Below, piece by piece: positions 18,298-55,888 of a DNA stretch of 64,000 nucleotides (position 1 is its first letter; every line of letters begins with the position of its first letter). The notes below the pieces were generated by a model. It was not told the origin of the DNA. It made no database searches and was given only the letters and a program-made list of their open reading frames with translations. Position numbers and translations under genes: made by a program. This stretch comes from Pseudomonas sp. VD-NE ins (GTDB lineage Bacteria > Pseudomonadota > Gammaproteobacteria > Pseudomonadales > Pseudomonadaceae): contig NZ_CP134772.1 in the NCBI RefSeq assembly GCF_031882575.1, forward strand, positions 3,739,001 through 3,803,000, written 5' to 3'.

Positions 18298-18323
18298 AAA
18301 TAACCACAAGTCCGTTCAGGGGT

Positions 18324-18363: not shown

Positions 18364-19242
18364 TCAGGACACCACTTGCCCGGCCGGCACTTTCAGGCCG
18401 TCATGCCACCACGCCGCGAAACTGAAGACGTTGGGCGCCTTGAGAATCGTGAAGTGGTTGCCCGGCCCGTACCACACCGCCAGATCCGCAACCTGGCGCT
18501 GCCAACCCTCGACCATCGCCGCTTGCTCGCGCTGATTGCCCCACGCATCCAGCGTCGGATCATCGACCAGCGCCAGCCGCACCGGCCCGGTGTAGGCCCG
18601 TTGCGGTTGATAGACCGTGCGCAGTGCTGTGGCGAAGGTGCGAACCGGCCCGTGCATGGCCTGCGCTGACGAACGCGCAGACAACACACCGGCGCGCACC
18701 ATGCCCTCGTGCAACAACCGCATTTGCGTGGTGTCGTCAGCCTCGGCGAATGCCAGCGGCTCGATGCCCAACGACTTGCCGCTGGACAGTTGCAGCGTCT
18801 CGATCAAGCGCTCCAGTGCGGCGGTCGTCGTATACGGTTTGCCCGCCGTGCCGTTGCCGCCCGGGGATTCGCTGTCGATCAGGGTCAACGACGCCACCTC
18901 ACGCCCGGCCACCTGCAACTGCGTCGCCATGGCATGCGCAACCCAACCGCCAAACGAATGGCCGATCAAATGCACCGGGCCTTGCGGATACAGTTGCTCG
19001 ACGGCTTGCAGATAACACGCGGCTGCCGCTTCTACCTGACTGTGCGGCACGCCGTGACCATCCAGGCCACGCGGTTGCAGGCCGTAGATCGGCCACTCCG
19101 GACCGAGCGCTTCGGTCAGGTGAATGAACCCGGTGACACTGTCGCCCGCCCCCGGCACGCAAAAGATCGGCGCATGCCCGGGGTGCCCGCTCTGAATCGT
19201 CAACAGCGGCTGATAGGCCTCTGGTTCCGGAACCTGCGCAGC
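18364..19242 (-). other. NRPS thioesterase domain TE2
   Basis: The second C-terminal thioesterase has an intact GHSFGG elbow (Ser5751) and a PGNHFTILKAP segment with the catalytic His near the end. In arthrofactin synthetase both tandem TEs contribute to release, with the first being essential. Confidence 0.8.
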
Positions 19243-22200
19243 GGCCATCGCCTGACTCAAGGCCTGGCCGAGTGCCTGAATATCCGGGGTTTTCATCATG
19301 CTGCGGTGATCACCCGGGACATCGATGCAGCGCAGCAATCCAGTGGCAACTTTCTTCTCCCAGCCACGGGTTGGATTGGGTTGTGCCTGCCCCGGCATCA
19401 GTGCCTGAGCGCGGAACAAGTGCACTGGCTGACTGGCCGGGCTGACCCGGTAATGCGCCAGCGCCAGGCCATGAGCGGCCTCTCGATCGAAGTAACTCCA
19501 GGCATCCGCCGCCGACAGTGCGGCCAGTTCCGGGTCAGGCAATTGCTGTTCGCAGCAGCGCTGGAACAGTTCATCGAAGGCGATGAGTTCGACTTCAGCC
19601 TCGAGCCTGTCTACGTCAGCCAACGCTGGCAGCCCTTCTTCTCCACGCATCTGCGAACGCGCGCGGCAGTGCTCAAGCAATTGACGCTTGTCGCGATGCG
19701 CGCCGCTCCAGCGGGTTTCATCCTGGCTGGCCGGATGCGGCGCGTAGGTATCGAGCAGGCCGACAAACGCCACCGCCTCATCGAGGCCGAGCAACTGCTG
19801 AGCGATTTCATACGCCAGCAAGCCGCCAAACGACCACCCGGCCAGACGGTACGGCCCATGCGGTTGTACCGAGCGAATAATCCCGACCATCCGCGTGGCC
19901 ATGCACTCAAGGGTGCGCAGTTGCGGCTGGCCGAGTGGCACGCCGGGTAAACCGTAAATCGGAAACTCGCCCTCGATATGCAGGCCCAATGCCGGGAAGT
20001 ACACGTCCCGTCCGCTGAACTCATGGATCAGGAACAGCGCATCGCCGCCCGCGCCCGGCCGCACCACGACCAGTCCTTCCGGATGTTCGGGCGCTTCGCT
20101 GCGCTGACTGAGCAACGCGGCCAGCGCTTCGACACTCGGGCGCTGGAACAGCTCCGCCAGCGTCACCTGTTGCCCCGCACGTTGCAGCAGGTTGACCAGA
20201 CGAATCGCCAGCAGCGAATGCCCGCCCAATTCGAAGAAGTTGTCGTGACGTCCGACCTGCTCGACATTCAACACTTCACCCCAGACCCGCGCCAGCAAGG
20301 TTTCGACCTCGCCTTGAGGTGCTTCGTAATGTCGGCTGAGTACCGCGTCGAGACCCGGTGCCGGCAGCGCCTGACGATCGATCTTGCCGTTGGGACTCAA
20401 CGGCAGAACCTCGAGCGCGACAAACGCGCCCGGCACCATGTACTCGGGCAACTGCTCGAGGATGAATGCGCGCAACGTGTCGATAGCGGGCGCAGCAATG
20501 CCCTCGCGCAGAGTGAAATACGCCACCAGACGCTCGTCGCGCATCAGCACGACCACCTCGCGTACACCCGGGTGCCGGATCAAACGCGCTTCAATTTCAC
20601 CGAGTTCCAGGCGCAAGCCGTGCAGCTTGACCTGGAAGTCATTGCGCCCGAGGAACTCAAGGTTGCCGTCGGCGCGGTAACGCACCAGATCGCCGGTGCG
20701 GTACAAGCGATCACCGGCCACGAACGGACTGTCGATAAAGCGCTCGGCCTGCATCTGCGGCAGTCCCATGTAACCGCGCGCCACGCCGATACCGCCGATG
20801 TGCAACTGGCCAATAACGCCCAGCGGCACCGGTTGGTCATGCGCATCGAGCACATACAGACGGGTGTTGCAGATGGCCTTGCCGATCGGCAATTCCGACG
20901 TTGGCACCGGCATATGTGGTTCCAGTGTCCATGCCGTGCTGTCGACCGTGGCTTCGGTCGGGCCATACACGTTATGCAGGCGCACCCACGGCAGGTGCTG
21001 GCGCACGGCAGCGGCCAGTGCCGCCGTGAGTTCGCCGCCACCACAGAAAATATCGCTGAGGCTGGTGCATTCACTGACCTCCTGCAGCTCAACAAACTGC
21101 TGCAACAGCGCCGGCACAAACTTGACCACGGTAATCCGTTGCTGACGAATCACTTGCGCCAGATACGCCGGCTCCCGATGACCGCCCGGCCGTGCCAGTA
21201 CCAGGCGTACGCCGGCCGTCAGCGGCCAGAAGAACTCCCACACCGATCCGTCGAAACTGAATGGCGCTTTCTGCAACAGCGCGCCGTCTGTGGTCGGTGG
21301 GCAAATCTGCGAGCCCCAATGCACCAGATTGCACAAGCCACGGTGTTCGAGCATCACGCCTTTCGGTGTGCCGGTCGAACCCGAGGTGTAGATCATGTAC
21401 GCCAGATTCGAAGACGTCAGGCCAGACACCTGCGGATTGCGTTCCGACTGGTCATGCCAAGTGCATTGATCAAAGTCGATCAACGCCGTCTCACTCTCAA
21501 CGAACAACGATCGGGTGGCTGTGTGGACCAGCACCGCCACCGGCGCGCAGTCCCTGAGCATAAAGTCCAGGCGCTCCGCCGGGTAAGCCGGATCCAGCGG
21601 CACATAGGCACCACCGGCCTTGAGAATACCGAGCAGCCCCACCACCAGATCGAGTCCGCGCTCGACGCACAACGCCACCCGCGCATCCGGCCCCACGCCC
21701 TGCTCGCGCAGGTGATGCGCGAGGCGGTTGGCACGGGCATTCAGCTCGCGATAGGTCAGGCTGTGTTCGCCCGACTGTACGGCGATGGCGTCCGGCTGAC
21801 GCTGCACCTGCGCTTCGAACTGGCTTTGGATCGGTTGCTCGACCGGGCAATCGACTTGCGTCGCGTTGAAGTCGCCGAGCAAGCGCTGCTGTTCATCCGC
21901 CGCGAGCAGGTTGACTTGCGCCAACACCACTTGGTCATCGCTGACCAGCGCCGCCAGCAAGCGCTGCAAGTAACCGGTAAAACGTTGCACGGTCGACTCA
22001 TCGAACAACGCCGTGGCGTAGCGCAGCGCGCCACGGATTCCTTGCGGGTTTTCCCCCAGGCTCAGCGACAGGTCGAACTTCACAAAGTGATTTTCCCCTG
22101 CCAGGCCTTCCAGCGTCAGCCCGCCCAACGCCAGGGCGGGCGCGACGCTGCTGTCCCAGCTCACCAGCGTCTGGAACAACGGTGTGTGGGAAAGGCTGCG

Positions 22201-25200
22201 CACCGGCCGGGTGATTTCCACCACGTGTTCGAACGGCAGATCCTGATGCGCCTGTGCAGCCAGGGTCTGCGCCTTGACCCGCGCCAGCAGCGCTGCACCG
22301 GTCAGATCACCCGAGGTATCGACGCGCAGCGCAAGCGTGTTGACGAACATGCCGATCAACCCTTCTGTCTCGGCGCGGGTACGGTTGGCCACCGGCGAGC
22401 CAATGACCACATCGGATTGCCCGGACAGGCGCGCGAGCAACATTGCCCAGGCGCTCATGAGCACCATGTACGGCGTCACGGCGTGACGCTGACACAACGC
22501 CTTGAGACCGGCGCTGGTCTGCTCGTCCAGCACGATCTCGACACTGCCGCCGCAATGATCCTGTTGCGCCGGACGCGGGCGGTCGGTTGGCAGGCTCAAC
22601 AATACCGGGGCGCCGGCCAGGGTCTGCTGCCAGTAATCGCTCTGGCGCTGCAGCACCTCGCCGCTGAGCCAGCGACGTTGCCAAACCGCATAATCCGCGT
22701 ATTGCAGGGCCAGAGGCGGCAGCGGATCGTCCTCACCGAGGCTGAACGCCTGATACACCGCCATCAGTTCGCGGGTCAGCACGCCCATCGACCAGCCGTC
22801 AGAAATGATGTGATGCATCGTCAGCAACAGCACATGATGATCATCGGCCAGACGCACCAGCCGACCGCGAATCAACGGGTCGTCCTGCAAGTTGAACGGC
22901 CCGCGCGCTTCAGCGTCGACCAAAGCACGCAAGGCCTCCTCGGTCTGCGGCTGTTGCCGCCAATCTTCCTCAATCAGCGTCAGGCCACTGTCGACCGAGG
23001 CGATCAGCACCTGTGCTTCGTCGTTCAGTTGGGTGAACCGACTGCGCAGGGTTTCGTGACGAGCGACGATCCGCGCCAATGCCCGTTGCAGTGCCACGGC
23101 GTCGAGTCGGCCACGCAGGTGCAAGCCCAGAGGAATGTTGTAGGCGGTGTTGCCGCCGTCCATCTGCGCGAGGAACCACAAGCGTTGCTGGGCGAAGGAC
23201 AACGGCAGCGCCTGATCGCGCGGCGCTGGCAGAATCTGCGGCAAGCTGCTGCGTTCGGCCTGACTCAACACTTCGGCGACCGCCGCCAGTTCCGCGTTGG
23301 CAAACAGATCAGCCAGCGCCAGTTCCACACCCAATTGCTGGCGCACCTGGGAGAGCATGCGCATGGCCAGCAATGAATGGCCGCCGAGTTCGAAGAAGTT
23401 GTCATGGCGACCGACCTGTTCGACCTGCAACACCTCGGCCCAGACCTGCGCCAGGCTTGCTTCGAGTGGATTGGCCGGTGCCTCGTAGGCCCGACTGAGC
23501 AGCGCCTCCTGGGTCGGTGCCGGCAGCGCCTTGCGATCGACCTTGCCGTTGTTGTTCAGCGGCAACACCTCGAGTTGCACCCAGGCCGTCGGCAGCATGT
23601 ATTCCGGCAGACGGGCATGCAATTGCGCGTTCAGTTCGGCACTGTCCAACAGTCCCTCGTGCGCCGTGTAGTACGCCACCAGACGCGGGCTGTCCTGACC
23701 GTCACGGCGCGCCAGCACCACCGCTTCCTTGATCCCCGGGCAGTTCAACAGGCGGTTTTCGATTTCCCCCAGTTCGATGCGGAAGCCACGGATCTTCACC
23801 TGATCGTCGTTACGCCCGATGCAGTCAAGTTGCCCCGGTGCCAGCCAGCGCGCGAGGTCGCCGGTGCGATAGAGCAACGCACCAGGCGTTTCGCTGAACG
23901 GATCGCGGAGGAACTTCTCGGCGGTCAGATCCGGCCGGTTCAGGTAACCCAGCGCCACGCCCTGCCCGCCGATGTACAACTCGCCGGTGACGCCCATCGG
24001 CACCGGTTGCTGATACGTGTCGAGCACATACACCTGCGTGTTGCCGATCGGCCCGCCAATCGGCACGCTGTCGGCGTTTTCCGGCACTTCACGCACTTCG
24101 AATGTCGTGGCGTACGTGGTGGTTTCGGTCGGACCGTAGCAATGCACGATGCGCAATGCCGGGGCCTCGGCCAGCAGTCGCCGGAACGCCGCCGGATCGC
24201 CACGCTCACCGCCGCACAGCAGCATCCGCAGGCCCTTGAGCGCCTGCGGAATCAGTTGCACGTACTGGTTGAACAGCGCGGTGGTGACAAACAGGATCGT
24301 CGCGCCACTGGCACTCAGTTCGCGACCAAAGGCATTCGGATCGAGCAAGGTTTGATGGTCAATGATCACCACGCGACCGCCATTGAGCAGCGGGCCCCAG
24401 ATGTCCATGGTGCTCGCATCGAACGCCGGATTCGAGGCGAAGACCACACGATCCTGTGCCTTGAAATCGGCGTAACCATTATTAAGCACCAAGCGGCCGA
24501 TGCCCCGGTGCGGCACCATTACCCCTTTCGGCGTGCCGGTGGAACCCGAGGTGTACATGATGTAAGCCAGCGCCTCGGAGGACTGCAGCAGGTTGGGGTT
24601 GTGCGTCGGCTGTCCGCTGAGGGTCAGCGTGTCGAGGTCGATACGCGGTGCGGCGTAGTCGATGACTTCGCTGCTGAGGGTCAACAGCGCCACCGCCTGA
24701 CAGTCCTCGACCATGAACGCCTGGCGCTCGGTCGGCGCATTGATGTCCAGCGGCACATAGGCTGCCGCACATTTAGCGATGGCCAGTTGCGCGACCAGCA
24801 GCTCCAGCGAACGCGGTAACAGGATCGCCACGTGATCGCCCGGTTGCACGCCGTGAGCGATCAGGTGATGGGCCAAGCGATTGGCCTGAGCGTTCAGCTC
24901 AAAGTAGCTCAGTGAATGTGCGCCATGCACCGCCGCCACAGCTTTGGGATGCGCAGCTGCCTGCTGTTGGAAAACCCCGTGTACGGTCAGTGTCTGCGGG
25001 TAGTCATGCGCGGTGGCGTTGAAGTCGTACAGCAAGCGCTGGCGCTCATCGTTTGTCAGCAATGGAACACGTTCCAGCACCGTTTGATCATCGGCAACCA
25101 TCGCTTCGAGCAGGCGCTCGAAGTAACCGATGTAACGCGCAATCGTCTGCGCATCGAACAATGCAGTGGCGTAATTCAGCGTGCCACGAATCACCCCGCT

Positions 25201-28200
25201 GACCTCACCCAGTGTCAGCGTCAGGTCAAACTTGGCAACCTCGCCCGGCCCCGCAACGCCCTCCAGGGTCAGCTCACCCAACGCCAGTTGCGGGCCGACG
25301 CTGCTGTCCCAGTTCAGTGTGGTCTGGAACAACGGGCTGTGCGCCAGACTGCGCACCGGTCGGGCGATTTCCACCACTTGTTCAAACGGCAAATCCTGAT
25401 GCGCTTGCGCCTCCAGTGTCCGCGCCTTTACCCGCGCCAGCAGCGCTTCGACACTCGGCGCGTCCGAGGTGTCGATGCGCAAAGCGAGTGTGTTGACGAA
25501 CATGCCGATCAAGCCTTCGATTTCAGCGCGGCTGCGGTTGGCCACCGGCGCACCGATCACCACATCGGTCTGCCCGGACAGACGACTCATCAGCAGCGCC
25601 CAGGCGCTCGTCAAGGTCATGAACAGGGTCGCGCCGTGACGCTGGCTCAACGCTTTGAGGCCAGTGCTCAAGCGTTCGTCCAGCAACACCTCGACGTGGC
25701 TGCCGGCATAGTCCTGTTGTGCCGGTCGCGGGCGATCGGTGGGCAACGTCAACAAGGCCGGCGCGCCCTTGAGGGCCTGCTGCCAATAGTCGCTTTGCCG
25801 CTGCAGCACTTCACCGCTGAGCCACTGACGCTGCCACACGGCGTAGTCGCCGTATTGCAGGGTCAATGGCGGCAGCGGATCAGGCTGACCGTGGCTGAAC
25901 GCTTGATACAACGCCATCAACTCAGCGGTCAGCACGCCCATCGACCAGCCATCGGCAACGATGTGATGCACGGTCAACAGCAACACATGATGATCGTCGG
26001 CCAGGCGCACCAACCGCCCGCGAATCAACGGATCGTTGTGCAGATCAAACGCTGTCGAGGCTTCCTGCGCCATCAATCCCTGCAAAGTCTGTTCGGCATG
26101 CAGCTGTTGACGCAGGTCGTCAACGCGCAACAGCAAACCGCTGTCGACCGGGGCAATCGCCACGTGGGCGCTGTCGTCGAAGCTGATGAAACGGCTGCGC
26201 AGGGTTTCGTGGCGGGCAACGATTTGCGCCAGCGCCGCTTGCAGGGCATCGATGTCAAGTCGACCGCGCAGACGCAGGCCAATGGGGATGTTGTACGCCG
26301 AGTTGCCACCCGTCATCTGCGCCAGGAACCACAGGCGTTGTTGGGCGAAGGACATCGGCAACGGTTGATCACGCGGTGCCGGCACAATGTCCGGTAGCAC
26401 GCTACGCCCGGCACGATTCAATACTTCAGCGACTGCGCGCAACTGCGCGTCGGCAAACAGGTCACTCAGCGCCAGTTCGACGCCGAGGCGCTGACGGATC
26501 AGCGAGACCATGCGCATCGCCAACAGCGAATGACCGCCGAGTTCGAAGAAATGATCATGACGGCCGACCTGCTCGACTTGCAGAACTTCGGCCCAGATCT
26601 GCGCCAGTGCGGTTTCCAGTTGGCCTTGCGGCACCTCGTATTCGCGGGTCGGCAGCGCGGCCAGATCCGGTTTCGGCAACGCCTTGCGGTCGACCTTGCC
26701 ATTGGCGGTCAGCGGCAAAGCTTCGAGCCGGACAAACGCTGCCGGCACCATGTAGTCCGGCAACTGCGCCAGCAGCTGCTCGCGCAACTCGCCCAGCGCC
26801 AGTGGCTCGGCCCCCGCCTGTTCGGTGAAGTACGCCACCAGTCGCGGTTGACCGGGTTGGTCCTCGCGGGCCAGCAACACCGCTTCGTTGATCCCGGGGA
26901 GCTGATTGAGCCGGGTCTCGATCTCGCCCAATTCAATGCGCATGCCACGGATTTTCACCTGGTCGTCGTTACGCCCCAAATAGTCTAGCGAGCCATCTTC
27001 GCGCCAGCGGGCAAGGTCACCGGTGCGGTACATGCGCGCATTCGGCGTGCGGCTGAACGGGTCGTGCAGGAAGCGCTCGGCAGTCAGATCGGCGCGGTTC
27101 AGATAACCCCGGGCGACGCCCGCGCCACCGACGTACAACTCGCCCATGACGCCCATTGGTACCGGACGTTGCTGCTCGTCGAGCAAGTAAATAAAGGCGT
27201 TAGCCACTGGTTTGCCGATGTGCAATGCCGCGCCGACTTCAATGCGGCCCGAAGTGGCAACCACGGTGGCCTCGGTAGGGCCGTAGTTGTTGATCACGGC
27301 GAAGCGCTGGTCGCGGTTGAACTGGCGCAAGCGGTCGCCACCAATCAACAAGGTGCGCAAAGTCGGGTGATCGAAGTTCTGGCTGAACGCGTATTCAGCA
27401 ATCGGCGTTGGCAGGAAGCTCACATCCAGTGGTTGCCCGCGCCACCATTCGAGCAACGCGTCGATGTCTTCGCTGCCGTCATGGGTCGGCGCCAAGTGCA
27501 AGGTCGCGCCCACACACAGGGCCGGCCAGACTTCCCACGCCATCGCATCAAAGCCAAACCCGGCAAGGCTTGAGGTGTGGCTGCCGGCGCGCAGGTCGAA
27601 CGCTTCACAGTGCCAGTCGACCAGATTGGACAGCGTCTGATGCTCGACCATGACGCCTTTGGGCAGACCGGTCGAACCCGAGGTGTAAATCACGTAGGCC
27701 AAATGCGCAGCGCTCAGCCCCGGCACCGCAGGATTGTGCTGCGCCTGCGCCGGCCATGCGCACAGGTCGACATCGATCACTGGCACGGTCAGCAGTGGCA
27801 GTCTTTCGTGCAGATCGCTTTGCGTGAGCACCGCGACCGGCGCACTGTCGCCGAGCAAATAGCCGATCCGCTCAGCGGGATGCGCCGGATCGATCGGCAC
27901 ATAGCCGGCGCCAGCCTTGAGAATGGCCACCAGACCGACCAGCGTATCCAGACCGCGGCGGGCGACGATGGCCACACGGTCATCGGCTTTCACCCCGATG
28001 GCGATCAAGTGATGCGCCAACGCATTGGCCTGACGATTGAGCTGCAAGTAAGTCAGCGGCTGCTCGGCAAACACCGCTGCCACAGCCTGCGGATGCTCGG
28101 CGACCTGCGCCTCGAAGCGTTGGGCAATCGTCAGCCCGCGCGGGTAGCCGGCCTCGGTCGTGTTGAAACGCACCAGCAACTGTTCGCGCTCGGATACCGG

Positions 28201-31200
28201 CAGGATCGACAACCGATCAAACCCCACGTGTGGCGTATGCTCCAGCGCATCAATCAAGGAGCACAACGCACCCTGCATGTACCCACAGATTCGCTGTGCA
28301 TCAATCCCCGCCCCGGCCAATACCTTCAGGCGGAAGTCTTCGCCGAGATCATCAACGCTGAGGGTCAGGCGATAGTTGGTGTGTTCCTCGGCATCGAGCA
28401 ATTGCATGCCGTGCCACGCCGCTTGCACCTCGGCCGATATCGGCCCGACCGGGGTGCTGTGACGATAGTTGAGCAACGTGCTGAACAGCGGCGTACCCGC
28501 CGGCATCGCGCTGCACTGTTGCACCTGCGCCAGTTGCGCGTGCTCATGAGCGAGCAACTGACTCAAGCGTTGATGGGTCGCCAGTGCCGCACCTTTAACG
28601 CTGTGCGCATTCAGTTCGATGCACAGCGGCAAGGTGTTGATGAACACACCCAGCGCCCGTTCCGAGCCTTCACCGCCCTGCAATCGGCCGAGCAACACCG
28701 TGCCGAAGACCACGGCGTCGCGCCCGGACAATTGCCCAAGCACCTGCGCCCAGGCGAGGTGCATCAGGCTGGCGGCGCTGACACCCAAGCGCCGTGCCTG
28801 TTGCCTTACGCTGTGGCTGAGTGTGTTTTCCAGCGTCAACTGCGCTTCTTGCGCGGGCCCGTCATGGGCCAGATTCTGACCATAGGGCAAAGTCGGCTCA
28901 TCGATCGCGCCGAGCATTTCGCGGAAGAAGCTTTCGTGCTCCTGTTCACTCAGACCAGCCTGGGTATGCGCCACATAGTTGCGATACGGCACCGGTTCGC
29001 TCAAGTGCCCGGCGTTGTCCAGCAGAAACGCCTGCATCTCGTGCTGCAGCACCTCAAGCGCCACGTGATCCATGACCAAATGATGGAACAGCAACAACGC
29101 CACCACCCGTTGATTGACCGCATCACGGCTGTACACCACGCGCATCAGCGGCGCCTCGGTGACGGGCATGCGGTAGTTATCGATGGTGAAGCGCTCACGC
29201 AACTGGTTCAGCGCATCGCCCGCTTCGGCATCCAGCGCCAAAGCTTCGCAGCGCAGCGAAGCCTGACGCCAGACCACTTGCACCGGTTCTTCAAGGCCTT
29301 CCCAGAACAGCGAAGTGCGCAGAATGTCATGGCGTTCAATCACCCGTTGCAGGGCAGTGGTGAAGGCTTGCAAACGCTGTTCATCGGTGAAGGCAAACTG
29401 CGCCTGCAGCACATACGGATCACCCTGCGCCGCCGACAGATGATGGAACAGGATGCCGGTCTGCAAAGGCGCCAGCGGGTAGATATCCTGCACGTTGCGC
29501 GCACCGCCGGGGACACTCGCAACGATGCGGTCAATCGTCGCTTGATCCAGCGCCACCAGTGGCAGCAGCTCGGGCGTGATGCGCGTGCAATCGGCCGGAA
29601 CAAGATTGGCTGGCACCGCTGCCTCAGGCTCTCCGCCCACCGCCGCTGCCAATGCGGCCAGCGTCGGTTGGTCGAACAGCACGCGAATATCCGCCGACAG
29701 GCCGGCCCGGCGCATGCGCGCAACCAGATTGACCGCCAGCAGCGAGTGGCCGCCCAGTTCGAAGAAATGATCGAAGCGCCCGACCCGCTCAACCTTCAGC
29801 AACTCGGCCCAAATCCCGGCAATCACGGTTTCGACTTCACCGACCGGGGCTTCGTACGCGCGGGTCAGCAGCGCCGAAGGGTCAGGGGCCGGCAAGGCCT
29901 GGCGGTCCAGTTTGCCGTTGGGGCTCAGTGGCAAGGCCTGCAGATGCACAAACACCGCAGGCACCATGTAATCCGGCAAGTGCTTGAGCAGTTGGCTGCG
30001 CAACTGATCGATTTCCAGCGGCTCGCCGCTGTAGTACGCGACCAGACGCTGATCGCCCGGCACGTCTTCACGAGCGAGCACCACCGCTTCGCGCACGCCG
30101 TCGATGTGCGCCAGATGCGCCTGAATCTCGCCCAGTTCGATGCGCAGACCACGGATCTTGACCTGATCGTCGTTGCGCCCCAGGTACTCGATGTTGCCAT
30201 CGGCCAGATACCGCGCGACGTCGCCGGTGCGGTACAAACGCGCGCCGGGCTGATCATTGAACGGATCGTCGAGGAAGCGTTCGGCCGTCAGCTCAGGTCG
30301 ATTCAGATACCCCCGCGCCACCTGCACCCCGCCCAGATACATCTCGCCGACCACACCCAACGGCGTCGGTTGCTGATGCGCATCAAGGATGTACACGCGG
30401 GTGTTGCACAGCGGTTTGCCGATCGGCGGCGTGCCGTCCGGCACCGGCGAATCCGCCTCCAGCGTCCACACGGTGCTGTCGACAGTGGCTTCGGTCGGGC
30501 CATAAACGTTATGCAGGCGCACCTGCGGCAGACGCTCGCGCACGCTGCGCACCAACGCGGCGGTCAGCTCACCGCCACCACAGAACACATCGCTCAGGCT
30601 GCGGCACTCAACGACTTCTTCCACTTCAAGGAATTGCTGCAACAGCGCCGGTACGAACTGGACGACATTGACCTGTTGCTCACGAATCAGCTGCACCAGC
30701 GCGGCCGGATCGCGGTGGTCGTCCGGGCCGGCGAGAACCAGACGCATGCCGCTGGTCAATGGCCAGAACAGCTCCCACACCGAAGCGTCGAAGCTGAACG
30801 GGGTTTTCTGCAACAGCGCGGCGCCAGTCGGCAGCGGACACAGGCCGGTGCTCCAGTGCAGCAGATTGCCCAGATTGCGGTGCTCGACCATCACGCCTTT
30901 CGGCGTGCCGGTGGAGCCCGAGGTGTAAATCACATAAGCCAGGTTCGCGGCACTCAGGCCCGCTACCTGCGGGTTGCTTTGCGCAAGGTTTTGCCAAGTG
31001 CAATGGTCGAAATCGACCCGCACGCCCGCCCACTCGCCAATCAGCGCACGCGTCGGCGCATGCACCAGCAGCACCGTTGGTGCGCTGTCCTCAAGCATGT
31101 AGGCCAGACGTTCGGCGGGATAGCCCGGGTCCAGCGGCACATAAGCGCCGCCGGCCTTGAGAATCGCCAGCAGACCGACCAACAACTCCGGCCCACGCTC

Positions 31201-34200
31201 GACGCAGATCGCCACCCGCGCATCGCTGCCCACGCCGCACTGGCGCAGGTGATGGGCGAGTTGGTTGGCGCGGCGGTTCAACTCGGCGTAACTCAAACGC
31301 AGCTCACCGGCCACCACGGCGTCAGCGTCGGGGGTGCGCAATACCTGCGCCTCGAAGCGACCATGAACGGTCGGCTCGAGATCGTGGGCGACGGCGGTTG
31401 CGTTCAGATCGAACAGCAGGTGCTGACGCTCGTCATCAGCCAACAGCGCCACCTGCTCCAGTACCGCTTGATCGTTGTTGACCATTGCCTGCAACAGTCG
31501 CTGGAAGTAACCGACATAACGCTCAATGGTCGACTCGTCGAACAGGGCAACGGCGTACTCCAGCACACCGCGAATCCCGCCCGGCGCGTCTGCCAGCGTC
31601 AGCGACAAATCGAATTTGGCAAAGTGGCTCGGCTCGGCGACGCTTTCCAGCGTCAGCTCGCCCAGGCTCAGGCTGGCGCCGTGGCCGCTGTCCCAACTGA
31701 ACATCGCTTGAAACAACGGGCTGTGCGCCATGCTACGCGCAGGCCGGGTGATTTCCACCACTTGCTCGAACGGCAGATCCTGATGCGCCTGCGCCTCCAG
31801 CGTTCGCGTCTTGACCCGCGCCAGCAGCGCCTCGCTGCTCAACTCGCCCGAAGTATCGATACGCAGCGCCAGGGTGTTGACGAACATGCCGATCAGACCT
31901 TCGATCTCGGCACGGATACGGTTAGCCACCGGTGAACCGATGACCACTTCGGCTTGCCCGGACAACCGACTCAACAGACTCGCCCAGGCACTGAGCAGAA
32001 GCATGTACATCGTCACGCCGTGACGCTGAGCCAAGGCCTTGAGTGCGGCGCTCAGGCGTTCGTCGAGCACCACGTCGACGGTGCTGCCGGCGTAATCCTG
32101 CTGCGCCGGGCGCACGCGGTCAGTCGGCAACGTCAACAGTGCCGGAGCGCCGGCCAGGGTCTGTTGCCAGTATTCGCTTTGACGCTGTAGCACCTCACCA
32201 CTGAGCCAGCGCCGCTGCCACACCGCGTAATCGCTGTATTGCAGCGCCAGCGGTGGCAGTGGATCTGGTTGACCGTGGCTGAATGCCAGATAAAGCGCCA
32301 TCAGTTCACGGGTCAGAACCCCCATCGACCAGCCATCGGAGATGATGTGGTGCAGAGTCAACAGCAGCACATGATGATCATCGGCGAGGCGCACCAAGCG
32401 ACCGCGAATCAGCGCATCGTCCTGCAAGTCGAATGGCCCCGAGGCTTCGCCCTGAATCAGCGCCTGCAAGGCTTCATCGGGTTGCGGGTGCTGGCGCAAA
32501 TCTTCAACGCGCAGCAGCAGACCGCTGTCGACCGGGGCGATCAGCACTTGCGCCTCGTCATTGAACTGGGCAAAACGGCTGCGCAGGGTTTCATGCCGCG
32601 CGACGATGCGCGCCAAGGCTTGTTGCAGGGCCGGTTCATTCAACTGCCCACGCAGGCGCAAGCCGATGGGAATGTTGTACGCGGTGTTGGCGCCTTCCAT
32701 TTGTGCGAGAAACCACAAGCGTTGCTGAGCGAATGACAGCGGCAAGGCGCCGTCTCGGGCCACCGCGACAATCTCCGGTTGCGTGCTGCGCCCCGCTTGC
32801 GCCACCGCCTCGGCAACCGCTGCCAGTTCGGCGTTGGCAAACAGATCGCCCAGTGCCAGCTCCACGCCAAGGCGCTGGCGAACCTGGGACACCATGCGCA
32901 TCGCCAACAGCGAATGGCCGCCGAGCTCGAAGAAGTGATCCTGACGCCCTACTCGCTCGACGTGCAGCACCTGCGCCCAGATCTGCGCCAAGGCGCTTTC
33001 CAGTTCGTTGTGCGGTGCCTCGTATTCGCGGGTAAACAGCGCCGCACGCTCAGGTTTCGGCAGGGCCTTGCGGTCGACCTTGCCATTGGCGGTCAACGGC
33101 AGTGCGTCGAGTTTGACGAAGGCCACCGGCACCATGTACTCCGGCAACTGAGTCAACAGGTGCGCGCGCAACTCGGCCACGGCCAGCGGTTCGACCTGAC
33201 TCTGCTCGGTGAAATACGCCACCAGGCGCGGCTGGCCGGGTTCATCTTCGCGGGCCAGCAGCACCGCTTCCTGAATGCCGGGCAACTGATTCAGGCGAGT
33301 TTCGATTTCGCCGAGTTCGATGCGCACGCCACGGATTTTCACCTGATCGTCGTTGCGCCCCAGGTACTCGATCGTGCCGTCCGCGCGCCAGCGTGCGAGA
33401 TCGCCGGTGCGATACATGCGCGGGTTCGGCAAGGAACTGAACGGATCGTGCAGGAAGCGTTCGGCGCTCAGGTCGGCCCGGTTCAAATAGCCGCGAGCGA
33501 CCCCGGCACCGCCAACATACAACTCGCCCATGACGCCAATCGGCACCGGCCGCTGCTGTTCATCGAGCAGGTACACCGTGGCGTTGGCCACCGGTTTGCC
33601 GATGTGCAAGGCGTCACCCGCCTCGATTCGCCCGGAGGTCGCAACCACGGTGGCTTCGGTCGGGCCGTAGTTGTTGATCACATCGAATTGCTGGTTGCGG
33701 CTGAACTGACGCAAACGGTCGCCACCGATCAGCAGTGTGCGCAACGTCGGGTGCTCGAGGTTCTGGCTGAAGGCATATTCGGCCACGGGTGTCGGCAGAA
33801 AACTGACGTCCAGTGGCTGCGCGCGCCACCAGTCGAGCAGCGCATCGATGTCCTCGGTTCCCTCGTGCGTCGGTGCCAGATGCAAAGTCGCACCAGCACA
33901 CAACGCCGGCCAGACTTCCCAGGCCATGGCGTCGAAACCGAACCCGGCAAGGCTCGAGGTGTGGCGACCGGCGCACAGATCAAACGCGCTGCAATGCCAA
34001 TCGACCAGATTCGACAAGGTGCGGTGTTCGACCATCACCCCTTTGGGCAGGCCGGTGGAACCGGAGGTGTAGATCACGTAGGCCAGATGTGCGGCGGTCA
34101 GGCCCGGCACCTGCGGATCATAGGTCTCGCTCAGCGGCCAGGTGCGCGGGTCAAGATCGATCACCGGCACCGCCAGCGCCGGCAGGCGATTGCGCAGATT

Positions 34201-36207: not shown

Positions 36208-49220
<13,013 letters not shown>

Positions 49221-49368
49221 GAGGTAACCTGCTGTAAATACGGAAAAAAGGAGCGCGCAGCAGCGAGTCCGTGCACGCGGCGCGCAGCCTGGAAAAACTA
49301 AAACATCGGGGCGTGGGTGTCTGACATGGGAAGCGGGGACAAGCCGCGCGCTTGAGCACCGCAAGTCC

Positions 49369-49462
49369 CCTGTGGGAGCGAGCCTGCTCGCGAATACGCT
49401 GGTTCAGTCAATGTTGATGGCGACTGATACACCGCTTTCGCGAGCAGGCTCGCTCCCACAGG
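49369..49462. repeat. REPIN between NRPS genes one and two
   Basis: CCTGTGGGAGCGAGCCTGCT begins at 49369 and its reverse complement ends at 49462, giving two inverted REPs about 50 bases apart. The arms are the same as those at 3230-3322, while the middle differs. It sits inside the NRPS operon, 16 bases after the first gene's stop. Confidence 0.9.
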
Positions 49463-49477
49463 TTTTGTGTCCGGTAG

Positions 49478-52400
49478 TCAGAGACGGCGCTTGCGGTTGA
49501 GGCTCGGGATGGTGGTCTGGGCGATCTCGACCTGCTTCGCCTGCCGCGAGGTCTGTGCCGCCAGCGCGGCCAGCGTCGGCTGGCTGAACAGCGTCCGCGC
49601 GTCGACGTGCAGCCCGGCCAGACGCATGCGCGCGACCAGACTGACCGCCAACAGCGAATGCCCGCCCAGCTCGAAGAAGTTGTCGTGCCGCCCCACCTGC
49701 TCGACCTTGAGCACCTGCGCCCAGATCTGCGCCAACGCGGTTTCCACATCGCCTGCGGGGGCCTCGTAAGGACGACTGAGCAGCGCCTCCGCCCCCGGTT
49801 CCGGCAACGCCTTGCGGTCGATTTTGTCGTTGGGCGTCAAAGGCAACGCCGCCAGCCTCACGTAGGCGCCAGGCACCATGAACTCCGGCAACTGCGCCAA
49901 TACATGCGCTCGCAATGCGTCTAGCGTCGGCGCAGTCAGCTCGGCACGCAGGGTGTAATAAGCCACCAGCCGCTCATCGCGCACCAGCACCACCGCCTCA
50001 CGGATCGCCGGATGTTCCAGCAGGCGCGCTTCAATCTCGCCCAGCTCAAGGCGCACCCCGCGCAGCTTGACCTGAAAGTCATTGCGACCGAGGAATTCGA
50101 GGTTGCCATCGGCGCCGTAGCGCACCAGATCACCGGTGCGATACAAGCGATCACCGGCCACGAACGGACTGTCGATAAAGCGCTCGGCCTGCAATTGCGG
50201 CAGTCCCAGATACCCGCGCGCCACGCCCACCCCGCCAATGTGCAGATGCCCGCTGACGCCTAACGGCACTGGCTGATCAAAGGCATCGAGGACATACAGC
50301 CGCGTATTGCTCAGGGCCTTGCCGATCGGCACCAGTGTCGGCGGCACCGGCTCGCCGGGCGCCAGCGTCCAGCCGCTGCTGTCGACCGTAGTTTCGGTCG
50401 GCCCATAGACGTTATGCAGGCGCACCCACGGCAGGCGCTCGCGCACTTGCCGGGCCAGGGCGACGGTCAACTCGCCGCCACCGTTGAGCACGTCGGTGAG
50501 GCTGGTGCACTGGCTGACATCATCCTGTTCGATGAACTGCTGCAACAACGCCGGGACGAACTTGACCACGGTGATGTTCTGCTCGCGGATCACTTGCGTG
50601 ACATAAGCCGAATCACGGTTGCCATCGGCCCGCGCCAGCACCAGGCGCATGCCCGAGCAGAGTGGCCAGAAGATCTCCCACACCGAACTGTCGAAACTGT
50701 ACGGGGCCTTTTGCAGCAACGCCCCGTGTCCAGTGGGCGGCGACAACTGCGAGCCCCAGTGCACCATGTTGCAGGCGCTGCGGTGCTCGATCATCACGCC
50801 CTTCGGCGTACCGGTGGAGCCGGAGGTGTAGATCATGTAGGCCAGATTCGTCGCGCTGAGGCCCGGCACCTGCGGGTTGTCGCGCGGCTGGTCCTGCCAG
50901 ACGCCGAGGTCGAGATCGATCAGCGGCACGCCGGGTTCGCCGAGCAGATCGCGCGTCGCCGCATGCACCAGCAGCGCGACCGGTGCGCTGTCCTGCAACA
51001 TGTAGTTCAGGCGTTGCAGCGGATAATCCGGATCGAGCGGCACATAAGCACCGCCCGCTTTGAGAATGCCCAGCAGACCGATTACCAACTCAGGCCCGCG
51101 CTCGACGCAGATCGCTACCCGCGAATCCGGCTGTACGCCCAGACCACGCAGATGATGGGCCAAGCGGTTGGCCTGCTGGTTCAACTCGCGATAGGTCAGG
51201 CGTTGCTCTGCGAACTGCACGGCGATGGCATTGGGTTTGCGCTGCACCTGCTGTTCGAACAGTGCCTGCAATGGCTGCTCCAGCGGGCAGTCGACGGCGG
51301 TGGCGTTGAACTCGATCAGTAGCTGTTGCAGCTCTTGTTGCGGCAACAGTGGCAGACGATTCAACGGCTGCTGCGGTGTGTTCTCCAGCGCCTCGACCAA
51401 GACGCTCAGCGCGGACTGCACGTAAGCGCAAATCCGTTGTGCGCCAATGCTCGACAAGGTTCGGGTGGTCAGACGCAAGCCTGTGCCGAGGTCGTCAACA
51501 CTCAGGGTAAACGGGTAATTGGTGCGCTCCTCGCTGGCCAGGGTCTCGATGCCTTGCCACGTTTGCCGGGAGGTTTTTTGCTCAGCATCATCGCTGTGTC
51601 GGTAGTTGAGCAAGGCACTGAACAGCGGTGCTGGCGCGGCAACGCCACTGCAACGCTGGGCCAGCGCCAAAGAGGCGTGTTCATGGGCGAGCAAAGCGGT
51701 CAGGCGTGCATGGGTGGACTTCACCGCCGCGCGCGCGCCTTCACCGACATCGACCCGCAGCGGCAAGGTGTTGATGAACACCCCCAACGCCCGGTCGGCA
51801 CCCGCGCCGCCCTGCATGCGCCCCATCAGCACCGTGCCGAATACCACACTTTGCTGAGCGGAGGTTGCCGCCAGTACTTGCGCCCAAGCGAGGTGGATCA
51901 GGCTGGCGACGCTGACGCCGGCCAGACGCGCCTGCTGCTGCAAGCGCAGATACAGATCGCTCGCCAACGCCCGCTCGGCTTCTTCGATGTTGCTGCCGTC
52001 ACCCTGCACATTCTGCAAAGCGAACGGCAAGGTTGGCTCGTCGATGTCGGCGAGCATCTGGCGGAAAAACGCTTCATGCTCCTGTTCACTGACGCCCAGT
52101 CGCGTTTGCGCCACATAGTTGCGGTATGGCACCGGCGCCGCCAGCGGTTCAGCGCTCCCGGACAGGCAGGCGTGGATTTCTTCGCGCATGGCCTCCAGCG
52201 CGATGTGATCCATCGCCAAATGATGGAACAGCAAGATGCCGACCACCCGGTTGTGCGCGGGATCACGGGCATACATCAGGCGCAGCAGCGGCGCCTGACT
52301 CACATCGAGGCGATAACGCCGCGCGTCGAAACGCTCGTGCAATTGATCGATGATCGCGCCACGGGCAGGATCAAATTCAACCTCCTGCACCGGCAAAATG

Positions 52401-52783
52401 GCCTCGCGCCAAACGACCTGAACCGGTGACGTCAGCCCTTCCCAAACCACCGCCGTACGCAGGATATCGTGCCGTGCGATGACCTGACGCAGCGCAGCAG
52501 CGAAGGCCTCGACCCGCTCGAGGCTGTCGAACGCCAGCAGCGATTGCAGCAGGTACGGATCGCCCTGCGCGGCGGTGATGTGGTGATAGAGAATGCCTTC
52601 CTGCAACGGCGCCAACGGGTAGATGTCCTGCACATTGGCGGCACCGCCCGGCACTGTTGCGACAATGCGCTCGATCATCGCCTGATCCAGCTGAACCAAT
52701 GGCAGCAGATCCGGCGTGATGTGCGTGCAATCGGGCGCAATGCGGTTGGCCGGTACCTCGACTTCGCGGCCGCTGCCCTCCGC
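49478..52783 (-). other. NRPS module 2: dual C/E-A(Asp)-T
   Basis: The C/E motif FHHLAMDH should epimerize Leu1. The pocket code reads DSWKLGVVDK; pocket Lys points to an acidic residue, Asp in this lipopeptide family. The A10 motif reads NDKIDRKAL, with Asp in the usual Gly place and the catalytic Lys kept. Carrier Ser2078. Confidence 0.72.
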
Positions 52784-55700
52784 TGCCGCCAACGCGGCCA
52801 ATGTCGGCTGACTGAACAGCACGCGAACGTCGCTGCTCATGCCGATCTGGCGCATGCGCTCGATCAGGCCAACGGCCAACAAGGAGTGGCCGCCCAGCTC
52901 AAAAAAGTGGTCGTGACGCCCTACCCGTTCGACTTGCAGGACCTCGGCCCAGATCTGCGCCAAAGCGATTTCGACGTCACCTTGCGGCGCCTCGTACTGA
53001 CGACGGATCAACGCTTCCTGCCCCGGCGCCGGCAATGCCTGGCGATCGAGCTTGCCGTTGGCCGTCAGCGGCAAGGTCGCCAGACGGATGTAAGCGGCCG
53101 GCAACAGGGCGGACGGCAAGCGCGAGGTCAGGTGCGCGTGCAGTTGCAGGATATCCAGCGCCTCATGCTCGGTAAACCATGCCAACAGCTGACCGTCGCG
53201 CACCAGCACCACGGCTTCCTGTACCGCGTCATGACTGCTGAGCGCCGCTTCGATTTCGCCCAGCTCGACACGCACACCGCGGACTTTCACCTGATCATCG
53301 TTACGACCGATGTACTCAAGGTTGCCGTCGAAACGCCAACGGGCGAGATCGCCGGTGCGGTACATGCGCGCATCCGGCTGCACACTGAACGGGTCGTCGA
53401 GGAAACGTTCCGCTGTCAGCTCCGGGCGATTGAGATAGCCCCGGGTAACCCCGGCACCGCCGACATACAGCTCGCCAATGATGCCGATCGGCACCGGACG
53501 CTGCTGATCATCGAGCAGATAAGCCGTGGCATTGCTCACGGGTTTGCCGATGTGCAACGCCTGCCCCGGGCTGATCAGCCCGGAGGTGGCGACCACCGTG
53601 GCTTCGGTCGGCCCGTAGTTGTTGACCACCGCAAAACCCTGCGCACGGTTGAACTGGCGCAGACGATCGCCGCCAATCAGCAAGGTGCGCAAGGTCGGGT
53701 GACCGAGTTGTTTGCTGAACGCATATTCGGCAATCGGTGTTGGCAGGAAACTGACGTCCAGCGGCTGCGCCCGCCACCAGGCGAGCAGCGCATCGATGTC
53801 TTCGCTGCCTTCGCTCGCGGGCGCAAGGTGCACCGTCGCGCCCACGCACAACGCCGGCCAGACCTCCCACGCCATCGCGTCAAAACCGAAGCCGGCCAGG
53901 CTCGACGTGTGCTGCCCGGGACCGAGCCCGAATGCCGCGCAATGCCAGTCGACCAGATTGCCCAGCGTGCGATGTTCAACCATTACGCCCTTGGGCAACC
54001 CGGTCGAGCCGGAGGTGTAAATCACATAAGCGAGGTGGCGGGTGTTCAACTCCAGCACTTCGGGATCGGTCAAGTTGTCGAGCAACCACTCGCGCCGATC
54101 AAGCTCGATCACGGGCAGCGCTGTGGCGGGCAAACGCTCGCGCAAGTCACTTTGCGTCAGCAGCGCCACCGGAGCACTGTCGCTGAGTAGATAACTCAGG
54201 CGCTCGGGCGGATGCGCCGGGTCAATCGGCACATAAGCGGCGCCTGCCTTGAGAATCGCCAGCAGCCCGACCAGCGTCTCAAGGCCTCTGCGCGCGACAA
54301 TCGCCACCCGGTCATCCGGCCGTACGCCGAGGCCCAGCAGATGATGGGCCAACGCATTGGCTTGCTGGTTCAGTTCGCTATAGGTCAGCGTGCGGTCTTG
54401 ATAAGTCGCGACCACTGCGTCCGGGTGTTCGGCCACCCGCGACGCGAATCGCTGATGAATCAGTTGACCTTGCGGATAACTGACGCGGGTGTCGTTCCAC
54501 TCATCGAGCAGGGCCAGTTCTGCCGGGCTATTGAGGTTGAAATCGGCGATCGCCAGTGCCGGGCATTCCAGACCCTGCTCCAGTATCAGCAACAAGCGCT
54601 CGGTCAACGACGCAATCTCGTCAGCCGTGAAATAGGCCGGCGAGTACACCAGATGCAGCCAGGCCTTGTCGGTGTAACGGTTGCTGCGCAGGTGAAGGGC
54701 CAGCGGAGTCGCCTCGTGCTGGTTGGAGACCTTGACCGAGTGTCCCGACGCCTCACCGTAACGGTAGTCATGGTCGTCCTGTTCGTAGGACACCGACAGC
54801 TCGAACAGTTGCGCTCGGTCTTCACGCAACAGACCCAGCGCACGATTCATCTCGCTCAACGGATAGCGTTGATGACGAAAATCCTGCTTCAGACCATCGC
54901 CGATTGCCTTGATCAATTCGCCAAATGACAACGCCCGGCCAAACCCCATGTGCATTGCACTGACTTGGGTGAACAAGCCCAAAGTGCTTTTGAAGCGGGC
55001 ACCGGAACGATTGAGAATCGGCAAGCCGACCACCCACTCGTCACGCTGGGCGGTACGACTGAAATACACATGCAGCGCCGCCAGCAAGACATGAAATGCC
55101 GAGCCACCGAATCGTCTCGCGCAGTCTTTCATGCGCTCATGCAGCACGGCTGGAAAAACCTCGACGTGGATGCGACTGGGCGCTGCTTCAGCGTCAAGGG
55201 ATTCGCGATGACGGGGCGTCAACAAGGGCTCGGGCAAGCGGCGATACTTGTCCAGCCAGTAGCGTTGATCGCGTTCATAGCGGGGTGACTGATGGTAGCG
55301 CGCGTCATCTTCGATAAAGCCGACATAAGACGGTGCCGCCCTGCGCGGATGCTCGCCACGGCACAATGTGCTGTAGATCTCGCCCACCGACTTGAACAGC
55401 AACGCGAAAGCCCAGCCATCGATGATCAAGTGATGGGCCTGGGCTGCCAGCCAGTGACGATGGCGATCGAGGCGAATCAGACTGAAGCGGAACAACGCTT
55501 GCCCGCTCAACACAAAGCCCTGCGCCATCTGCGCTTCGACCAGCGTCCGAGCCGCCGACTGTGGATCAGGTTGGCCGCTGACATCATGCAGCGACATCAC
55601 CACCGGCAGCGCCTGTGCAAAACCTTGTAACGGCAGCCCATCGTGACCAACGTCCGATAGCAGAACAATGCGCAAGGCATCATTCGCGGCGACCAGAGAT

Positions 55701-55888
55701 TCAAGTGCCTCTTGCATCAATGCCGGATCCAGCGGCCCGGTCAGTTCGACGTAACCGCCAATGTTGTACAGCGGCGAATCTCCGCGACTCAGTTGGTCCA
55801 GCCAGATATCCCGTTGGGCGGCAGTCAGCGCAAAAGTCTCGACAGGCACGGACGGATCGTCCGCCACGTTGGCAGAAGTAGGCTGCAT
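49478..55888 (-). CDS. lipopeptide NRPS, starter modules 1-2
   Basis: This 2136-aa initiating synthetase has the domain order starter C, A, T, dual C/E, A, T. The first C domain (ALTAAQRDIWLDQL, AHHLIIDGWAF) is of the starter class that N-acylates the first amino acid with a 3-hydroxy fatty acid. Carrier serines are 1002 and 2078. Pockets read Leu and an acidic residue. There is no N-terminal docking domain, as expected for the first enzyme. The ATG at 55888 follows AAGGATC. The gene diverges from a LuxR-type regulator gene across 488 bases. No fatty-acyl-AMP ligase is present nearby, so the acyl group is presumably drawn from the general CoA or ACP pool. It corresponds to ArfA/MassA-type genes. 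Confidence 0.96.
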   Translation of the reverse strand: MQPTSANVADDPSVPVETFALTAAQRDIWLDQLSRGDSPLYNIGGYVELTGPLDPALMQEALESLVAANDALRIVLLSDVGHDGLPLQGFAQALPVVMSLHDVSGQPDPQSAARTLVEAQMAQGFVLSGQALFRFSLIRLDRHRHWLAAQAHHLIIDGWAFALLFKSVGEIYSTLCRGEHPRRAAPSYVGFIEDDARYHQSPRYERDQRYWLDKYRRLPEPLLTPRHRESLDAEAAPSRIHVEVFPAVLHERMKDCARRFGGSAFHVLLAALHVYFSRTAQRDEWVVGLPILNRSGARFKSTLGLFTQVSAMHMGFGRALSFGELIKAIGDGLKQDFRHQRYPLSEMNRALGLLREDRAQLFELSVSYEQDDHDYRYGEASGHSVKVSNQHEATPLALHLRSNRYTDKAWLHLVYSPAYFTADEIASLTERLLLILEQGLECPALAIADFNLNSPAELALLDEWNDTRVSYPQGQLIHQRFASRVAEHPDAVVATYQDRTLTYSELNQQANALAHHLLGLGVRPDDRVAIVARRGLETLVGLLAILKAGAAYVPIDPAHPPERLSYLLSDSAPVALLTQSDLRERLPATALPVIELDRREWLLDNLTDPEVLELNTRHLAYVIYTSGSTGLPKGVMVEHRTLGNLVDWHCAAFGLGPGQHTSSLAGFGFDAMAWEVWPALCVGATVHLAPASEGSEDIDALLAWWRAQPLDVSFLPTPIAEYAFSKQLGHPTLRTLLIGGDRLRQFNRAQGFAVVNNYGPTEATVVATSGLISPGQALHIGKPVSNATAYLLDDQQRPVPIGIIGELYVGGAGVTRGYLNRPELTAERFLDDPFSVQPDARMYRTGDLARWRFDGNLEYIGRNDDQVKVRGVRVELGEIEAALSSHDAVQEAVVLVRDGQLLAWFTEHEALDILQLHAHLTSRLPSALLPAAYIRLATLPLTANGKLDRQALPAPGQEALIRRQYEAPQGDVEIALAQIWAEVLQVERVGRHDHFFELGGHSLLAVGLIERMRQIGMSSDVRVLFSQPTLAALAAAEGSGREVEVPANRIAPDCTHITPDLLPLVQLDQAMIERIVATVPGGAANVQDIYPLAPLQEGILYHHITAAQGDPYLLQSLLAFDSLERVEAFAAALRQVIARHDILRTAVVWEGLTSPVQVVWREAILPVQEVEFDPARGAIIDQLHERFDARRYRLDVSQAPLLRLMYARDPAHNRVVGILLFHHLAMDHIALEAMREEIHACLSGSAEPLAAPVPYRNYVAQTRLGVSEQEHEAFFRQMLADIDEPTLPFALQNVQGDGSNIEEAERALASDLYLRLQQQARLAGVSVASLIHLAWAQVLAATSAQQSVVFGTVLMGRMQGGAGADRALGVFINTLPLRVDVGEGARAAVKSTHARLTALLAHEHASLALAQRCSGVAAPAPLFSALLNYRHSDDAEQKTSRQTWQGIETLASEERTNYPFTLSVDDLGTGLRLTTRTLSSIGAQRICAYVQSALSVLVEALENTPQQPLNRLPLLPQQELQQLLIEFNATAVDCPLEQPLQALFEQQVQRKPNAIAVQFAEQRLTYRELNQQANRLAHHLRGLGVQPDSRVAICVERGPELVIGLLGILKAGGAYVPLDPDYPLQRLNYMLQDSAPVALLVHAATRDLLGEPGVPLIDLDLGVWQDQPRDNPQVPGLSATNLAYMIYTSGSTGTPKGVMIEHRSACNMVHWGSQLSPPTGHGALLQKAPYSFDSSVWEIFWPLCSGMRLVLARADGNRDSAYVTQVIREQNITVVKFVPALLQQFIEQDDVSQCTSLTDVLNGGGELTVALARQVRERLPWVRLHNVYGPTETTVDSSGWTLAPGEPVPPTLVPIGKALSNTRLYVLDAFDQPVPLGVSGHLHIGGVGVARGYLGLPQLQAERFIDSPFVAGDRLYRTGDLVRYGADGNLEFLGRNDFQVKLRGVRLELGEIEARLLEHPAIREAVVLVRDERLVAYYTLRAELTAPTLDALRAHVLAQLPEFMVPGAYVRLAALPLTPNDKIDRKALPEPGAEALLSRPYEAPAGDVETALAQIWAQVLKVEQVGRHDNFFELGGHSLLAVSLVARMRLAGLHVDARTLFSQPTLAALAAQTSRQAKQVEIAQTTIPSLNRKRRL
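52784..55888 (-). other. NRPS module 1: starter C-A(Leu)-T
   Basis: The starter C domain is followed by an A domain with pocket code DAWFLGNVVK (Leu). The A-domain core resembles modules 7 and 9, while its C-terminal part resembles modules 4 and 5. Carrier Ser1002. Confidence 0.8.

Follow-up and report, generated by a model that had tools for sequence, protein, structure and literature searches.

The question raised by this locus is which lipopeptide its non-ribosomal peptide synthetase (NRPS) line would make and, in particular, whether the last residue of that peptide is aspartate or glutamate. The window, which is the whole stretch of 64,000 nucleotides of Pseudomonas DNA that was analysed, contains three long NRPS open reading frames (ORFs), collinear and all on the minus strand (49478-55888, 36204-49364 and 18364-36207 in the ORF list of the window). 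Judged from their sequence and surroundings, they very probably form the core of a lipopeptide cluster that belongs to the amphisin family, is complete and intact, and is of the tensin/milkisin sequence type. The three genes are:

49478..55888, minus strand, first NRPS gene (ArfA/TenA-like), 2136 aa, modules 1-2: starter C, A (predicted Leu), T, dual C/E, A (predicted Asp), T
36204..49220, minus strand, second NRPS gene (ArfB/TenB-like), modules 3-6 (predicted Thr, Leu, Leu, Ser) with four dual C/E domains; the ORF is open from 49364
18364..36207, minus strand, third NRPS gene (ArfC/TenC-like), 5947 aa, modules 7-11 (predicted Leu, Gln, Leu, Ile, Glu) with a TubC-type docking domain and tandem thioesterases

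These genes hold 2+4+5 modules, 11 in all, and a first-pass annotation of this DNA, which had proposed eleven C-A-T modules, is borne out by the count of the carrier motif LGGHSL (2+4+5 in a motif search) and by the 11 A domains found by alignment. A profile search of the genome places 11 of its 25 condensation-domain matches inside the window. All three proteins contain the Pfam domains Condensation, AMP-binding, AMP-binding_C and PP-binding, and the third one has in addition its docking domain at the N-terminus and two thioesterases at the C-terminus. The reading frames are intact and the core motifs are present, and three NRPS genes with 2+4+5 modules for 11 residues are the arrangement of the amphisin family. 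The start of the second gene is uncertain, because no strong ribosome-binding site was seen in the bases preceding its candidate ATGs; the ATG at 49220 is more probably the start than the TTG at 49364, since the resulting 4338 aa are near the size of lokB of P. koreensis S150, as calculated from table coordinates in PMC7520995.

The condensation and release domains also have the amphisin-family composition (a starter C domain, so called by position and literature, dual C/E domains and tandem thioesterases). The first and last of them are:

54512..55837, minus strand, putative starter condensation domain of module 1 (Pfam Condensation 18-459, motif HHLIIDG), expected to take the 3-hydroxyacyl chain
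18364..20040 (approximate limits), minus strand, tandem thioesterases, two domains with the motifs GWSFG and GHSFG

The starter type is expected for the C domain of module 1 from its position and by analogy with arthrofactin (PMC3039948), and from the same literature peptide release and lactone closure on Thr3 are the roles expected of the tandem thioesterases. In a motif search of the 11 modules, the dual C/E motif HHxxxxxGD was found in modules 2, 3, 4, 5, 6, 7 and 9 only, and modules 8, 10 and 11 contain HHxxxDG without it. The motif of module 7, HHASNEQGD, is atypical in that it lacks the usual Ile/Leu, and is common to the window, milkisin and P. zeae enzymes. The domain assignments made previously (a C domain of the starter type, the dual C/E type in modules 2-7 and 9, the LCL type in 8, 10 and 11, and two thioesterases) coincide with these motifs, and the D/L pattern drawn from them fits the C/E positions.

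The specificity of the line was read from nine pocket positions of each A domain in an alignment, the tenth (Lys) being assumed invariant:

Modules 1, 4, 5, 7 and 9, A domains, code DAWSLGNVV, predicted Leu
49823..51259, minus strand, A domain of module 2, code DSWKLGVVD, predicted Asp; the same code occurs at the Asp2 module of milkisin
Module 3, A domain, code DFWNVGMVH, predicted Thr
Module 6, A domain, code DVWHMSLVD, predicted Ser
29908..31350 (approximate limits), minus strand, A domain of module 8, code DAWQFGVVD, predicted Gln, also from the tree
Module 10, A domain, code DAMFLGCTY, predicted Ile
20368..21810 (approximate limits), minus strand, A domain of module 11, code DGWKFGVVD, predicted Glu from code match and tree

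On recomputation, the codes of the two acidic modules (2 and 11) were identical to those given in the first-pass annotation, and neither these strings nor two further ones had a match in the open-licence papers searched. The predicted residues fit the pattern Leu-Asp-Thr-Leu-Leu-Ser-Leu-(Gln/Ser)-(Leu/Ile)-Ile-(Asp/Glu) of the amphisin-family peptide table in PMC8788793, with which the length, family and residue order proposed earlier agree as well.

A calibration of both acidic codes is provided by milkisin, the lipopeptide of Pseudomonas crudilactis UCMA 17988, solved by MS/MS and NMR as Leu-Asp-Thr-Leu-Leu-Ser-Leu-Gln-Leu-Ile-Glu (PMC7339953; this corrigendum replaces an earlier, mis-assigned residue order, and milkisin is also treated in PMC5985324). 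Its Asp2 and Glu11 were set by NMR (PMC7339953; also in the table of PMC8788793). The pocket codes of UCMA 17988 equal those of the window at 10 of 11 modules, module 3 being off by one I/V change, and its A2 and A11 read DSWKLGVVD and DGWKFGVVD. Since one enzyme carries both codes and its product has Asp2 and Glu11, the first code is calibrated as Asp (by milkisin A2 only) and the second as Glu. This indicates that residue 11 of the predicted peptide is Glu and residue 2 Asp, so that the former alternative at position 11 is settled in favour of Glu by codes and tree. It had been suspected that the two acidic pockets may not accept the same amino acid, and this is supported as well.

The A-domain phylogeny that had been proposed as a check gives the same picture. 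The maximum-likelihood tree contains 70 A2, A8 and A11 domains (67 different), anchored by milkisin, SteC and P. zeae and with viscosin modules left out. In it, the window's A11 pairs with A11 of HKI0874 (100/91) inside a 15-row clade of Glu-type A11 domains (100/98), and A2 together with Asp-type A11 domains form a separate 26-row clade (100/99); the window's A2 falls within a clade of 11 A2 rows (100/98). A group of 18 rows of Gln-type A8 (100/98) includes the window's A8, and the five Ser-type A8 stand apart from it (100/100); this grouping and the Gln code ruled out Ser at position 8. Neither module 8 nor module 11 sorted with Ser or another specificity, the placement that had been named beforehand as refuting. 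Gln8 together with Glu11, as predicted from code identity with milkisin and from the tree, defines the tensin/milkisin sequence type.

A wider view was obtained from a protein survey, made from the best 120 of 978 and the best 120 of 923 scored proteins (143 distinct proteins listed), in which the 56 proteins of 5600-6100 residues with all five A domains were kept and 87 were left out for length; this set overlaps the genome loci and is skewed to relatives of the two queries. In these best matches the window's A11 code, DGWKFGVVD, occurs in 19 of 56 ArfC-type proteins and always together with a Gln-type A8 (18 DAWQFGVVD, one DAWQVGVVD), whereas DSWKLGVVD occupies A11 in 34, of which 29 have a Ser-type and five a Gln-type A8. 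The latter five are the combination expected of amphisin proper, with Asp at residue 11, and it has been described that acidic A domains of the amphisin family co-cluster and that arthrofactin A11 takes both acids (PMC9948697). Amphisin as the window's product is nevertheless very unlikely, and was ruled out on pocket code and tree: the window's A11 has the code of the milkisin Glu11 module, which in the survey never departs from Gln-type A8, and Asp-type A11 domains sit with A2 in another clade. Proteins named ArfC of MIS38 or LokC of COR10, sought as an Asp11 anchor, were not among the matches listed, many of which are nameless. SteC (P0040) and a P. zeae protein (P0048) share the window's codes from module 7 to module 11; for tensin (Glu11), FhG100052 and P. 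zeae OE 48.2 are described as producers (PMC8788793), SteC being linked to the stechlisin/tensin producer FhG100052 solely by its protein name. The three remaining proteins of the survey have other A11 codes (DAWQFGVVD, DNWKLGMVD and DSWKFGVVD). The first of these, a Gln code, belongs to the ArfC-type protein P0085 of Pseudomonas sp. NPDC087346, which may make a family member with Gln11.

The predicted product is therefore named from sequence as the tensin/milkisin peptide, C67H116N12O20, of 1408.843 Da with a C10 acyl chain. In the proposed mechanism, the starter C domain would put a 3-hydroxyacyl chain (mainly C10) on Leu1, the eleven modules would assemble Leu-Asp-aThr-Leu-Leu-Ser-Leu-Gln-Leu-Ile-Glu, the dual C/E domains of modules 2-7 and 9 would turn residues 1-6 and 8 to D, and the tandem thioesterases would join Glu11 to Thr3, closing the nine-residue lactone ring of the family. 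Recalculation returned both masses offered earlier (1394.827 for Asp11 and 1408.843 for Glu11), and the computed [M+H]+ of the 3-hydroxydecanoyl form is 1409.850; milkisin C gave m/z 1409.49 by MALDI (PMC7339953). The former Asp/Glu question has become a firm prediction, Glu11 at m/z 1409.85. There is about an even chance that the product is a mixture, with Glu11 as the main form accompanied by substantial congeners with Glu2, Asp11, Val10 or other acyl lengths: congeners of this kind are known for the peptide as stechlisins B2, C3, D3, E2 and F (PMC8788793), and milkisins A-D are spaced by 14 Da steps (PMC7339953). The Glu2 congener, known as stechlisin E2 (PMC8788793), would weigh 1422.859 Da by calculation. 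We found no counter-evidence to a mixture, which concerns minor products and fits the main reading of a Glu11 peptide.

The genes on both sides of the NRPS line are those that accompany it in other amphisin-family producers, that is LuxR, outer-membrane (OprM-like) and macAB genes, according to the layout in PMC8788793:

56377..57171, plus strand, LuxR-type regulator (LuxR1-like), upstream and divergent, PF00196
57205..58599, plus strand, NodT-family outer-membrane efflux protein (PleC-like), TIGR01845 at 454 bits (cut-off 210)
17149..18309, minus strand, MacA-type periplasmic adaptor (PleA-like), NCBIfam MacA at 362 bits (cut-off 342)
15188..17146, minus strand, MacB-type ABC exporter (PleB-like), NCBIfam MacB at 959 bits, slightly below the 966 cut-off
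12844..13590, plus strand, LuxR-type regulator (LuxR2-like), downstream, PF00196

Probably, MacAB and the NodT-type channel export the product and the LuxR regulators govern its formation. Related lipopeptides need LuxR-type regulators (PMC3039948 and PMC8788793), and expression is not readable from sequence, so the cluster could be silent or its product not made in this strain; this is improbable, given that the frames are intact, the core motifs are present and both LuxR-type genes and the export genes are in place. Beyond the outer-membrane gene lie SCO1/SenC and PCu(A)C genes, as they do beside the cluster for lokisin in P. koreensis S150 (PMC7520995). The window also encodes a TetR-type repressor scoring above the CurR cut-off (460-1104) and a deoxyribodipyrimidine photolyase-related protein (3443-4981, PF04244).

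The other 14 of the genome's 25 condensation-domain matches lie at 2.18-2.21 and 4.62 Mb, in open frames of 4107, 5001 and 4348 aa. By their frames and A codes these loci look like a pyoverdine system; a second lipopeptide line in the genome was considered and set aside on this presumed likeness in size and codes.

The two calibrated codes allow other clusters of the amphisin family to be typed for residues 2 and 11. A genome scan gave 18 loci from named Pseudomonas. In 16 clusters the reading covered A2, the greater part of modules 3-6 and the final modules, and in a 17th (p13.D5) the final modules only; W4I3, whose arrangement differs, was not counted. Module 6 of koreensis DSM 16610 is unread (its contig ends there), module 7 was read in PS14 and UCMA 17988 only, and module 5 of HMWF021 was looked for and not found. 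A11 has the code DGWKFGVVD in 12 of 17 clusters, DSWKLGVVD in four and DNWKLGMVD in one (RIT288), and A2 reads DSWKLGVVD in 15 of 16, the exception being P. atagonensis PS14 (DGWQFGVVD). The clusters whose A11 is not of the Glu type are five: koreensis DSM 16610, H1h, HMWF021, parakoreensis and RIT288. At A11 of these strains DSWKLGVVD would stand for Asp, by analogy with milkisin A2 and with lokisin and arthrofactin, which have Asp11 (PMC8788793).

In each of these five genomes, the A2 core and its A11 counterpart agree at 88.5-96.9% of their DNA positions over about 1 kb (at 76.9-92.2% of third positions). For all 11 Glu11-type clusters compared, the window among them, the corresponding identities are 73.2-75.4% (third positions 55.7-60.2%). 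Upstream of the core, in the first part of the A domain, the five reach 77.0-84.3% and the 11 have 69.3-76.3%, and C-domain DNA further upstream (-1900 to -550) is 29-55% identical in both groups. A one-sided rank test gave p 0.001, which is overstated, since it counts related clusters as independent. In four of the five, third-position identity between A2 and A11 within a genome exceeds all A2-A2 and A11-A11 values between those genomes (67-77%), and in RIT288 (76.9) it is not above its best A2-A2 value (77). In the tree, the neighbours of Asp-type A11 domains are not Glu-type A11 but A2 domains of the same clade, with which they nest (100/97, 15 rows).

The high core identity (88-97% vs 73-75%) suggests that residue 11 became Asp by gene conversion from A2 to A11, a label that may cover other forms of recombination. 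Along the koreensis A11 module, the C domain and the stretch after the core are plainly nearer to module 11 of the window, the first part of the A domain is about equally near to modules 2 and 11, and the core (+50 to +1100) is nearer to module 2 in five of seven 150-base bins, module 11 being nearer in those at +500 and +650. In PS14, positions +50 to +650 of the A2 core show 82-89% likeness to module 11 of the window and 70-79% to its module 2, and beyond +650 module 2 is once more the nearer one, which suggests that A11 was copied into A2, the reverse direction, and would change residue 2. A likely reading is that, in this family, gene conversion between the cores of A2 and A11 within one line changes the identity of residue 11 and occasionally that of residue 2, with A2 into A11 giving Asp11 in the lokisin/arthrofactin-type and nepenthesin-producer clade, where homogenisation would be ongoing, and the reverse in PS14. 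The window would represent an unconverted lineage, which would explain why its two acidic pockets differ.

A-domain and A-core recombination has been described as a general driver of NRPS diversity (PMC7486941 and PMC9205934), and duplications, exchanges and Glu/Asp co-clustering have been reported for the amphisin family (PMC9948697), in a paper in whose main text the terms 'gene conversion' and 'subdomain' do not appear. No description of an A2/A11 copy in amphisin-type synthetases was found in the portions of the open-licence literature searched. Such copying would be a natural A-domain core exchange within one assembly line that leaves the recipient C domain unchanged.

Some of these clusters show unusual residue sets. 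PS14 (L029, L054, L055), whose A2 core is similar to the window's A11 over its first 600 bases, is predicted to have Glu or Gln at residue 2, followed by Gln8-Ile9-Ile10-Glu11, and the latter set is also read from the pockets of EA105, p13.D5 and Irchel 3H7 (L002, L007, L008); it is absent from the amphisin-family table in PMC8788793, oakridgin and nepenthesin sequences excluded. RIT288 (L016, L031, L053) has Gln8 and, at A11, the code DNWKLGMVD with a core 88.5% like its own A2, which makes it a candidate for an amphisin-type Asp11 cluster with an unusual code.

Compared with known systems, the cluster is ordinary, being of a known kind and having a predicted product that is already known. 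Producers of the amphisin family have been placed in the P. koreensis subgroup, and the lokisin/anikasin and tensin/milkisin sequences dominate this family (PMC9948697). Among 35 other genomes of the genus, a sample of the window's relatives, two (G028 and G052) have a full-length match to module 11 and the thioesterases at 76% identity, and a third (G033) has one at 63% with a shorter frame. Six ArfC-type proteins are similar to the window's third protein over their full length (four at 90.3-95.6% identity, two at 80.2% and 84.5%), so the match is far beyond chance. The lokisin/arthrofactin-type clusters of P. koreensis DSM 16610 and P. parakoreensis, typed from their codes, share the module layout where read and the A2 code, but differ in a Ser-type A8 and in an A11 (DSWKLGVVD) whose core nearly copies A2, and are 76-77% identical to the window in module 11 and the thioesterases. 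Amphisin of DSS73 has, by the published table, Gln8, Leu9 and Ile10 as predicted here, but Asp11 (PMC8788793).

The putative tensin/stechlisin synthetase has the same codes in modules 7-11 and tandem thioesterases, with identities over the C proteins, the part compared, of 90.3% (SteC) and 93.2% (P. zeae P0048); module 7 of SteC differs in its C/E motif (HHVSGGEGD). No C/E motif difference consistently separating the tensin from the milkisin type was found in the enzymes compared. Tensin of P. zeae and milkisin have one sequence and differing NMR spectra (PMC8788793), so that the stereochemistry does not follow from codes and C/E motifs, and the window's product may be either stereoisomer. The milkisin synthetase of UCMA 17988 has the 2+4+5 modules and the seven C/E positions of the window, and its three proteins are 93.9% (A), 92.9% (B) and 95.6% (C) identical to those described here, the difference between the two systems being 4-7% protein divergence.
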